From a virus: a DNA stretch of 62,622 nucleotides. Positions 26,281 through 61,791 of this stretch are shown piece after piece. The notes beneath the pieces were generated by a model. That model made no database searches. It was given only the letters and a program-made list of their open reading frames with translations, and was not told where the DNA came from. The first letter of the stretch is position 1. Every line of letters starts with the position of its first letter. The position numbers and the translations under genes are program-made. Where the stretch lies: the IMG/VR virus record IMGVR_UViG_3300043395_001957, positions 1-62,622 of that record; one strand, written 5' to 3'.

Positions 26281-26835
26281 TTAATCTATAAATGGATTGT
26301 TTATTATCTTCTTTAAGTGTGCTCTTATTTTTTTAATGTTTATGAATACAGTCGATTTACTTATTCCTATCTTATCTGCTACTTCTTGCAGAGTATCATC
26401 TGAAGTCCAATAGATTTCGTATATCATAGCAGGTGCGAAATGTTTTGTTTTCTTTAACCTTTCTATTTCACTCATCACTGCTTCATGTGCTTTCATTATA
26501 GCCACATCTCTTTCAACATCATATTCTTCAACAGGTCCATCAGCTGTAATCTCTTCCTGATATTGTAATCGGTTTAACTTCTTTGTTTTATTTATCCATC
26601 TGTGTTTCAAAAACGCCATACAATACATTAGATTATATGAGTTCAAATAGAATAACTTAGTGTTCTTTTTTCTATGTAGATATTCATAAAGTTCGCCTAC
26701 TAAATCTTCAGCTTCCTCTCTATTCTTTGTAATATTGTAACTAACTTGCGATAGCCACGTATGAGATTCTTTGAAAAGGATTTCTAATCTTCTATTACAT
26801 TCCAATGCCACACTGCTAGTCACTTCGTTACTCAT
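26281..26835 (-). CDS. ECF-like RNA polymerase sigma factor (A)
   Basis: A 184-residue protein with sigma region 2-like sequence at about 25-85 (VSYNITKNREEAEDLVGELYEYL, then YNLMYCMAFLKHRWINKTKK). A region 4 helix-turn-helix lies at 147-172 (DTLQEVADKIGISKSTVFINIKKIRAHLKK). The linker is acidic, as in ECF sigmas. Such a factor would redirect host RNA polymerase to phage promoters; the TGTTAAATA-type elements ahead of the structural genes are candidates. Unit B's copy is 58755-59309; the HTH is nearly the same in both. Confidence 0.75.
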   Translation of the reverse strand: MSNEVTSSVALECNRRLEILFKESHTWLSQVSYNITKNREEAEDLVGELYEYLHRKKNTKLFYLNSYNLMYCMAFLKHRWINKTKKLNRLQYQEEITADGPVEEYDVERDVAIMKAHEAVMSEIERLKKTKHFAPAMIYEIYWTSDDTLQEVADKIGISKSTVFINIKKIRAHLKKIINNPFID

Positions 26836-27723: not shown

Positions 27724-28248
27724 TTATTTTAATCTTTTATTCAAACTCATTCCTAACTGATGGAAGTGGTTAATCATTGTGTATTCAATATTTCTAAGTG
27801 TTTCCTTATCAGTACCAGCCATGTCCAATATAACCCACTTATGTTTATCATAACCATAAACATCAAATGAATGATGTAAGTATGGCATTACTCCATTGTT
27901 TAGTTTATATTCTTTCTTATGTGCATTTCTTCTATAACTGAAAAGAGTTTGGGTGCTCCCCACATATACACGTTGCTCTGGGTTGATTATCAAATACACT
28001 GCTGATTTACTATCATCTGCACATACATTCTCTTTAGCCCATTGATTACAATATGCTGACCACTTCTTATGATTCTTTCTTTGCCAATCAATTTGGTAAG
28101 TAGGCTTTGTTTGTCTAAAATTTTTATTGTTTTCTTTTACACAACTTTTGCAGTTTGTTTGCAATAAATCAGGAGATGCTGCTCTTTTGTGAAATTGTGT
28201 TAGTGGTTGATGCTTACCACACTTTGAACATTGTTTTGTTGTTGCCAT
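27724..28248 (-). CDS. Zinc-finger GIY-YIG endonuclease (A)
   Basis: A 174-residue protein with an N-terminal CSKCGKHQPLTQFHKR...CKSC finger and a C-terminal GIY-YIG domain (VYLIINPEQRVYVGSTQTLFSYRRNAHKKEYK, then a Glu-containing NIEYTMINHF near the end). This is the architecture of phage homing or intron-type nucleases. It occupies the early region where unit B has a different GIY-YIG gene, consistent with independent insertion. Confidence 0.8.
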   Translation of the reverse strand: MATTKQCSKCGKHQPLTQFHKRAASPDLLQTNCKSCVKENNKNFRQTKPTYQIDWQRKNHKKWSAYCNQWAKENVCADDSKSAVYLIINPEQRVYVGSTQTLFSYRRNAHKKEYKLNNGVMPYLHHSFDVYGYDKHKWVILDMAGTDKETLRNIEYTMINHFHQLGMSLNKRLK

Positions 28249-29083: not shown

Positions 29084-29115
29084 TTTGGAAAATGTAAAAC
29101 TTTTTCGTACATTTA
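29084..29115 (+). promoter_or_regulatory. Promoter of the small RNA (A)
   Basis: TTTG (29084-29087), 20 bases ending TTTTTCG, then TACATTTA (29108-29115). The same layout with TTTCG directly before the -7 box drives the B small RNA and the plus-strand genes at 29376. Confidence 0.8.
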
Positions 29116-29120
29116 TGTTA

Positions 29121-29238
29121 AGTAAGGAGAAGGACTTAATTAATACTGATATTTACTACACTTTTTGCATCAGTGTCCTTCAACTTTCATATAAATAGCC
29201 CCCCTGCGGTTGGTGCCATCTCCGAGGGGGGCTTTCTT
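29121..29238 (+). ncRNA. Structured small RNA with terminator (A)
   Basis: About 118 bases from promoter to terminator with no open frame. Helix 1 pairs AAGGAC (29130-29135) with GTCCTT (29175-29180). A 9-base 5' bulge TTAATTAAT follows. Helix 2 pairs ACTGAT (29145-29150) with ATCAGT (29169-29174), directly adjacent on the 3' side, closing an 18-base loop. The RNA ends in a 9 bp hairpin AGCCCCCCT (29197-29205) / AGGGGGGCT (29225-29233) plus a T-rich tail, with GTGCCAT in its loop. Unit B has the same architecture at 61678-61788 with changed but still paired bases. Function unknown. Confidence 0.8.
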
Positions 29239-29261
29239 ATGCCCAAAATACCCCATTTTCA

Positions 29262-29290
29262 TAACTCATTGATAATCAACACGTTATAAA
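29262..29290. repeat. Operator-like dyad repeat, copy 1
   Basis: A 29-base exact direct repeat of 29311-29339. Its first 25 bases form the dyad TAAC-N3-TTGAT-N-ATCAA-N3-GTTA, the size of a dimeric repressor site. It stands upstream of the plus-strand promoter at 29376. Not found in unit B. Confidence 0.65.
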
Positions 29291-29310: not shown

Positions 29311-29339
29311 TAACTCATTGATAATCAACACGTTATAAA
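29311..29339. repeat. Operator-like dyad repeat, copy 2
   Basis: Second identical copy, 49 bases (about 4.7 helical turns) downstream of the first, 37 bases ahead of the -33 box of the plus-strand promoter. The spacing allows cooperative binding. Confidence 0.65.
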
Positions 29340-60666: not shown

Positions 60667-61242
60667 TTAATTTTCTGTGTTAAATAATTCATCAAAGCTT
60701 TGTGATATCTCTTGTTTAGTCATTTTATTAATATCTCTTGCTTTATCCATTTCCAGGACAATGTCCCTAACATTGTCCGTTGCTTTATCCTTATCAATAT
60801 CCATATCCTTATCCTTAGCCCTTACGTTACCATTATCATAGGGTATAGTAATGGTTGTATAAGGGTTATCTAACCCTTTACTAACAATTGGTAAAGTGTT
60901 ATCATTTGGTTTAATAATGCTATGGGATAGTAATAATTCTCTTGCTGATTTTACAGCAGGTGCATTATTAGTAAAGAAATTCTTATACTGAAATGTAACA
61001 AACTTTGGTATAAACCATTTGTTATTATCAGCAATGTAAATTCTTTCTTTAAGATATTCAATGATATCTTCTAAACTTCTATCAGTCCCTGTGTAGAACT
61101 TAATAGTTTTTAAACTTGGTTTATAAACACCTGCATGGTCACAAGCATCTAATAAGTACAACCATACTAATTTCATATCAGCTGGTAGTTCAGTAAACCA
61201 TTCATCATTCCATTTGTTGGAGTCTGTTAATCTTTTTGCCAT
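60667..61242 (-). CDS. Replication organiser, DnaD/phage_rep_org-like (B only)
   Basis: A 191-residue protein. Residues 1-110 match the winged-helix start of phage replisome organisers (NKWNDEWFTELPADMKLVWLYLLDACDHAGVY, LEDIIEYLKERIYIADNNKWFIPKFVTFQY). The rest is a charged tail with alternating KDKDMDIDKDK, normal for these proteins. It would load host replication proteins at the phage origin. Unit A has nothing similar. Confidence 0.8.
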   Translation of the reverse strand: MAKRLTDSNKWNDEWFTELPADMKLVWLYLLDACDHAGVYKPSLKTIKFYTGTDRSLEDIIEYLKERIYIADNNKWFIPKFVTFQYKNFFTNNAPAVKSARELLLSHSIIKPNDNTLPIVSKGLDNPYTTITIPYDNGNVRAKDKDMDIDKDKATDNVRDIVLEMDKARDINKMTKQEISQSFDELFNTEN

Positions 61243-61639: not shown

Positions 61640-61671
61640 TTTGGAAATACGGAAATTATTTCGTAAGTTTG
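61640..61671 (+). promoter_or_regulatory. Promoter of the small RNA (B)
   Basis: TTTG (61640-61643), 20 bases ending TTTCG, TAAGTTTG (61664-61671). Full match to the Bacteroidota pattern. Confidence 0.85.
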
Positions 61672-61677
61672 TTAAAT

Positions 61678-61788
61678 GAGTAGGAGCTTAAAGAATACCG
61701 ATACATTTTTTTAATCTATTGTCGGTGCTCCTCATATATCTCTATATAACCGCCCTCCTTCGTGCCATTTGGGGGGCGGTATTTTTTT
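61678..61788 (+). ncRNA. Structured small RNA with terminator (B)
   Basis: Counterpart of the unit A RNA. Helix 1 pairs AGGAGC (61682-61687) with GCTCCT (61727-61732). The 5' bulge is TTAAAGAAT (9 bases). Helix 2 pairs ACCGATA (61697-61703) with TGTCGGT (61720-61726), closing a 16-base loop. The terminator hairpin is ACCGCCCTCC (61749-61758) / GGGGGGCGGT (61771-61780) with one U-G pair, GTGCCAT in the loop and T7 after. Four paired positions differ from A by double changes that keep pairing, while bulge ends and the GTGCCAT loop are kept. Confidence 0.82.
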
Positions 61789-61791
61789 GCT

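Follow-up and report, generated by a model that had tools for sequence, protein, structure and literature searches.

Structured Small RNAs of Bacteroidota Phages with a Predicted Antisense Role at the Start Codons of Homing-Type Endonuclease Genes

Results

Genomic Setting of the RNA Genes

The DNA analyzed here, referred to as the window (the whole stretch, positions 1–62622), consists of two related phage genomes of ~31 kb, termed A and B, which are joined in one record and are 77–85% identical in many structural genes. This 62.6-kb record carries a 117-bp direct terminal repeat. Since related records with end repeats have lengths of 29.8–33.6 kb and L002 (L numbers denote related phage loci) contains A alone, the joined 62.6-kb sequence is probably an artefact, either of assembly or of dimer formation. 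Across these phages, the RNA gene is located beside an endonuclease/replication operon, in either orientation, and the adjoining operon encodes an endonuclease, a ribbon-helix-helix-like protein, several unknown proteins and a sigma-like protein, followed by the terminase. In some clades the RNA lies directly upstream of the endonuclease gene and is co-oriented with it (tandem arrangement), and in A and other clades it points away from the endonuclease gene (divergent arrangement). In relation to the operon, the RNA is divergent in A, B, L003, L083, L108, L130, L138 and others, and its orientation flips between clades; in phage B, the flanking genes on both sides are encoded on the opposite strand. 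In many tandem loci, we found a separate promoter of the form TTTGG...TATATT between the RNA terminator and the endonuclease gene. Owing to the divergent arrangements and this separate endonuclease promoter, the RNA is best described as a gene of its own and not as a leader.

The sigma-like protein (26281–26835, minus strand) and its homologs show weak similarity to sigma-70 regions 2/4 in Pfam and PHROGs, and its gene is found near the RNA in nearly all family members. The type of the RNA promoter varies by clade, and a TGTTA motif is kept ~12 nt upstream of helix 1. A putative phage sigma-specific promoter, AAAACTTTTT-N-TGTTA, is present at a few RNA genes and at one other place.

Structure of RNA A and RNA B

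RNA A is a small RNA gene of ~119 nt (29121..29239, plus strand; 5′ end estimated from the promoter), delineated by its fold and by the covariance model R1, which matches A at 29126–29239 with 77.6 bits. It is preceded by a predicted host-type promoter of the Bacteroidota sigma-A kind (29085..29116, plus strand), composed of TTTG (29085–29088), a spacer of 20 nt and TACATTTA (29109–29116), the Bacteroidota consensus being TTTG/TAnnTTTG (PMC7366714). Hairpin 1 (29129..29181), defined by pair-by-pair covariation, contains helix 1 (GAAGGAC/GTCCTTC, 29129–29135/29175–29181), a conserved 5′ bulge of 9 nt (TTAATTAAT, 29136–29144) and helix 2 (ACTGAT/ATCAGT, 29145–29150/29169–29174), which is stacked on the 3′ side and carries an 18-nt loop. 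An AU-rich linker leads to hairpin 2 (29198..29238, hairpin proper 29198–29232), recognized from sequence and fold as an intrinsic terminator, the 12-nt loop of which (29210–29221) contains the seed GTGCCAT (29213–29219). The second member, RNA B (61675..61790, plus strand; R1 match 61678–61788, 72.2 bits), has a predicted promoter at 61640..61671 (TTTG 61640–61643, 20-nt spacer, TAAGTTTG 61664–61671), hairpin 1 at 61682–61732 (helices AGGAGC/GCTCCT and ACCGAT/GTCGGT) with the bulge TTAAAGAAT (61688–61696), and the seed GTGCCAT at 61762–61768 in its terminator hairpin, all on the plus strand. The promoter and the plan of helices, bulge, loop and terminator described in the first-pass annotation could be read directly in both A and B, and the four compensatory differences that it reported at paired positions are all present. 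Both RNAs folded better than their dinucleotide shuffles, with z −4.1 for A and z −3.8 for B.

Just downstream of RNA A, there are two perfect 29-nt repeats of TAACTCATTGATAATCAACACGTTATAAA, at 29262–29290 and 29311–29339, and a motif resembling them is found after the RNA in G062. These repeats are iteron-like and perhaps mark an origin.

Homologs and Covariation

The starting set comprised 80 loci from terminase relatives in IMG/VR. Further members were collected using a structure descriptor and then a gapped DNA pattern, and a covariance model, together with a search around the neighboring sigma-like protein, gave the final match set. We found 69 matches, 58 of them distinct, in related uncultivated phage contigs, mostly at 40–100 bits. 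In a MAFFT-based alignment of 21 diverse sequences, 96.7% of the cells were paired, two-sided changes occurred at 11 of the 13 pairs, and the double-change cells amounted to 78, as compared with 24.2 in shuffles. In the alignment of all 58 distinct sequences, 97.0% of the expected pairs were formed, with two-sided changes at 12/13 pairs, 266 double-change cells as compared with 80.4, and a covariation score of 0.876 as compared with 0.227 (0/500 shuffles). The covariation signal was lost when the partner columns were slid by 1–3. Since the 58-sequence alignment was fitted to the model, the MAFFT-based test of 21 sequences is the cleaner evidence. The RNA is a structured family with conserved secondary structure, as the compensatory changes exceed those in both the shuffles and the shifted controls. 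The nearly invariant parts are the bulge UUAA(U/A)nAAU, the start of helix 2 (ACU/AGU) and UGYCA in the second loop, and the motif GUGCCAU/UGYCAU is kept family-wide in the loop of hairpin 2. When 22 long related records were searched whole, 17 had one clear copy each at E < 1e-5, a further one had a weak match (0.0066), and four had no match by this model.

No match was obtained in Rfam 15 at the gathering score for the window or for eight member loci, a relaxed Rfam scan gave chance-level matches only, and the family models of 6S RNA, tRNA and tmRNA did not match the RNA. The proposal, made from the A and B copies, that the small RNAs represent a new family whose helices covary is borne out by these matches, by the strong paired changes and by the absence of an Rfam entry; dozens of further homologs with paired changes were found by the covariance model and the other searches. 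Among isolated phages, we detected no relative of the sigma-like protein and, for the RNA, a 31-nt chance DNA match only; the exact DNA pattern for B gave no match among viral contigs. The sole strict-pattern match in 84,980 cellular genomes, L142 in a betaproteobacterial MAG, is without a proper helix 1, scores ~20 bits and is probably due to chance. A third helix, formed by TGTTA with the AU-rich linker, is good in L012–L017 and L126, but is not universal.

A sister clade (L048, L054, L058, L060, L061, L064, L067, L069, L074 and L077), the terminase of which is ~60% identical, carries a different RNA in the same place, with another first hairpin followed by a terminator hairpin with the loop UGUCAUU. 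Most often, it lies ~70 nt upstream of an HNH-like gene with the start ATGGCA, the match including a G·U wobble. L036 (7080–7225, plus strand) contains a permuted relative, in which a promoter is followed by a GTGCCAT hairpin, then by a hairpin whose loop includes TTAAATAATA, and by a terminator; an endonuclease gene with the start ATGGCAC lies downstream.

Complementarity between the Hairpin 2 Loop and Endonuclease Starts

The start regions of gene families were ranked by complementarity to the loop of hairpin 2. The top two families were a GIY-YIG-like endonuclease and an HNH endonuclease replacing it at the same site; the endonuclease was chosen as the target class after this ranking, on a partly overlapping phage set. 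The labels 'homing' and 'GIY-YIG' are predictions from PHROGs matches, HNH_3/NUMOD4 Pfam matches and visible motifs. When the window was searched by itself for ATGGCAC, the matches did not exceed expectation, and the target becomes visible only through the comparison of many phages.

In the tests that followed, ORFs were barred from beginning inside the RNA, as some true starts are otherwise hidden. For the 44 distinct loops and the starts of nearby genes, the value with the own loop was −12.69, as compared with −11.20 ± 0.29 for permuted loops (0/5000), and genes 2.5–8 kb away showed no own-loop effect (826/2000). At the endonuclease starts, the own loop gave −12.08 kcal/mol and permutation of the loops −9.43 ± 0.35 kcal/mol (z −7.7, 0/4000), the GIY-YIG-like and HNH genes each giving 0/4000 when taken separately. 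No own-loop effect was found for replication-type genes (1050/4000) or for other nearby genes (1740/4000), and the bulge and the loop of hairpin 1 showed no such effect against endonuclease starts. The signal was retained with GCCA loops only (0/4000), with permutation restricted to relatives having a similar hairpin 1 (5/10000), and with one representative for each of 24 groups (own value reached in 0/3000 draws), permutation tests of this kind lessening the effect of relatedness without fully removing it. It peaked at z −7.2 in the tandem arrangement and was weak in the divergent arrangement, that of A (155/4000, p about 0.04).

Loops with GUGCCAU face AUGGCA starts, and loops with UGUCAU face AUGACA starts (L017, L160, L166, L174 and L189). 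The second codon followed the loop accordingly, with 25 ATGGCA to 1 ATGACA for GCCA loops and 0 to 5 for GUCA loops (Fisher p 3.5e-5, loci treated as independent). When codon 2 encodes Ala, it is GCA in 25 of the 26 endonuclease genes, as compared with 108/175 Ala starts over all genes. Comparative evidence shows a specific complementarity between the predicted loop and the start codon, with co-variation of the two, which is weak in the divergent arrangement. The first-pass annotation assigned no function to the RNA; the comparative data point to pairing of its GUGCCAU loop with the endonuclease start codon.

Natural Swaps and Exceptions

The predicted pairing extends over 12 nt in L110, 11 nt in L015 and in L024, and 10 nt in L008 and in L218. 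In L012/L015, L013 and L017, hairpin 1 is nearly identical, and the terminator hairpins and their loops differ; the endonuclease genes start with accgATGGCA (L012/L015), aaagATGGCA (L013) and aaaATGACA (L017), such that the loop change from C to U goes with a matching change in the start codon context. The L017 start gave −9.9 with its own UGUCAU loop, as compared with −3.0 with the L015 loop and −5.3 with the L013 loop, and the L015 start gave −20.2 with its own loop, as compared with −13.0 (L013 loop) and −8.7 (L017 loop). We also found that L085 (319–700) and L087 (613–1000) are identical in the RNA, the spacer and the first five codons, and that the nuclease bodies behind them are unrelated (HNH vs. 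GIY-YIG-like). On sequence comparison, this is an exchange of the nuclease behind a fixed start region, and a complementary start is common to unrelated GIY-YIG-like and HNH nucleases at the same site. As exceptions, the endonuclease starts of L083 and L182 are unpaired, L022 has GCT, and L224 pairs only by way of a wobble and with a non-standard second codon; no endonuclease was found within 3 kb of the RNA in L181 and L192.

The candidate target of RNA A is the endonuclease gene at 27724..28248 (minus strand, start ATGGCAACAAC), which has an endonuclease-VII-like N-terminus and a homing-endonuclease-like C-terminus in PHROGs. Its start (28248, minus strand) can pair with the loop GUUGGUGCCAU through 6+4 bp with one mismatch, at −13.5 kcal/mol with the own loop as compared with a median of −11.7 with the loops of other phages, and ranks 2 among 53 starts. 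The top-ranked start in A (13506, −18.2) is found beside the portal, among the structural genes, and belongs to a class without covariation support. The B half contains no recognizable endonuclease. A possible, unproven target of RNA B is the nearest upstream operon gene (60667..61242, minus strand), which starts ATGGCA and has no Pfam or PHROGs match; by position and sequence it resembles the replication-organizer genes, a class without loop-specific covariation.

Discussion

We consider it likely that this RNA of freshwater Bacteroidota phages is a trans-acting antisense RNA that blocks the translation of a homing-type endonuclease. It is predicted, on the basis of the sequences alone, to have its own promoter and terminator and to be made apart from the target transcript. 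It probably switches off endonuclease production, since the loop of hairpin 2 matches the endonuclease start codon and changes together with it. In the proposed mechanism, hairpin 1 with its conserved bulge may provide stability or a platform for protein binding, and hairpin 2 would have a double role as a terminator and a targeting element, the 6–12 nt presented by its large loop being complementary to the sequence around the start codon of the neighboring homing-type endonuclease gene. Pairing between loop and start would cover the AUG and thereby block translation initiation, so that the nuclease would be kept low or delayed during infection. We infer that the RNA is expressed, pairs directly with its target in cells, represses rather than activates it, and benefits the phage.

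A cis-acting leader would also fit the tandem clades, where the RNA immediately precedes the endonuclease gene in the same orientation and the pairing signal reaches its maximum. Such an RNA would be the 5′ segment of an endonuclease mRNA made by read-through, and its loop would fold back on the start codon ~60–120 nt downstream; there are precedents in phage homing endonucleases that are silenced by a hairpin formed within the mRNA over the start (PMC3014915). However, the RNA is separated from the gene by its terminator hairpin and, at many of the tandem loci, by the separate promoter as well, and many phages, including A and B, keep the promoter and terminator of an RNA that is divergent from the operon. 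The RNA is thus not always upstream of, and co-transcribed with, the regulated gene, as a leader or riboswitch should be, and a cis-acting leader appears quite unlikely to us. Trans action is favored by the separate promoter in many tandem loci and by the flips of orientation between clades. Trans action would also allow the main targets to be other mRNAs, either of host genes or of several phage AUGGCA genes such as the replication organizers, with the endonuclease as one of many. Replication-organizer genes adjoining the RNA often begin with ATGGCA, and B, L181 and L192 retain the RNA without a nearby endonuclease. Nevertheless, the own-loop effect seen at the endonuclease starts was not found at replication genes or other nearby phage genes, and a multi-gene AUGGCA regulon including replication genes is unsupported by covariation; we regard other main targets as unlikely.

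The most conserved part of the RNA is the bulge UUAAWnAAU with the flanking ACU/AGUG, for which no pairing partner was found. This would suit an RNA that mainly binds a protein or machine (RNA polymerase, a nuclease or the packaging apparatus) through the bulge, the loop match being secondary or a product of linked inheritance. However, linkage does not generate complementarity, matched pairs occur with both nuclease types and both states of codon 2, and neither 6S RNA nor any other Rfam family matched, making such a role decidedly improbable as the main one. Intergenic DNA is AU-rich, and promoter and terminator motifs are presumably common in it, so that a functionless chance hairpin with a terminator might be imagined; this is refuted by a covariation score and double changes beyond all shuffles over 58 distinct sequences, and by the finding that 17 of the 22 long related records carry one copy each that is clear, leaving it a negligible probability.

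The antisense reading favored here might be extended to anti-homing immunity, in which the RNA would silence the homing-type endonuclease of its own phage and those of co-infecting relatives. The loop/start pairs would then diverge, as from GCCA/AUGGCA to GUCA/AUGACA and in the flanks, in the manner of plasmid antisense incompatibility groups, and phage B, which keeps the RNA and has no recognizable endonuclease, would be a protected non-carrier. We consider this extension unlikely.

Antisense regulators of translation start are an already known kind. The c4 RNA of P1/P7 is a phage-encoded antisense RNA controlling phage genes. The present RNA would share the control of phage genes with c4, OOP and sar, which lack the terminator-loop pairing to endonuclease start codons predicted here, and its layout is analogous, and only analogous, to type I toxin–antitoxin systems, in which an antisense RNA acts against the mRNA of a killing or arresting toxin. 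OOP of lambda and sar of P22 are phage-encoded antisense RNAs on lysis/lysogeny genes (PMC12197685). GibS of Bacteroides has been shown experimentally to pair over start codons and to repress; GibS and other trans-encoded Bacteroides sRNAs resemble the phage RNA as short intergenic RNAs with a Bacteroidota-type promoter and with pairing, predicted in the phage RNA, at the translation start of the target, in hosts without obvious Hfq or ProQ (PMC7366714). In contrast to GibS, a cellular regulator of metabolism that uses a long unstructured 5′ seed, the RNA described here is phage-borne, with the terminator hairpin loop as its predicted seed and a neighboring endonuclease gene as its predicted target. 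CfrI of cyanophage S-PM2 is likewise a phage antisense RNA adjoining a homing endonuclease gene (F-ChpI), but is described in a review as linked to psbA (PMC12197685), whereas the present RNA has a conserved structured hairpin and a short loop predicted to pair with the endonuclease start itself. I-TevI, mobE and segB of T4-type phages have their start region sequestered in hairpins, and no small trans-acting regulatory RNA has been functionally characterized from T4 according to a review (PMC3014915). The common feature, predicted in the present case, is a repression of translation that acts at the start of a phage homing endonuclease gene, and the intramolecular cis hairpins are the difference.

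The RNA family is new, being absent from Rfam 15, and, in the literature searched and to our knowledge, an endonuclease start would be a new type of target for a trans-acting phage RNA. Little is known so far about small RNAs of lytic phages that act in trans. The present data reveal an RNA family without a database entry that is widespread in uncultivated Bacteroidota phages, and suggest that its function can be read from natural compensatory mutations that link the RNA with the start codon of a nuclease gene beside it. The natural loop/start pairs are ready-made mutants for testing. If true, sRNA control of homing-type endonucleases would constitute a new layer in the conflict of phages with mobile elements.
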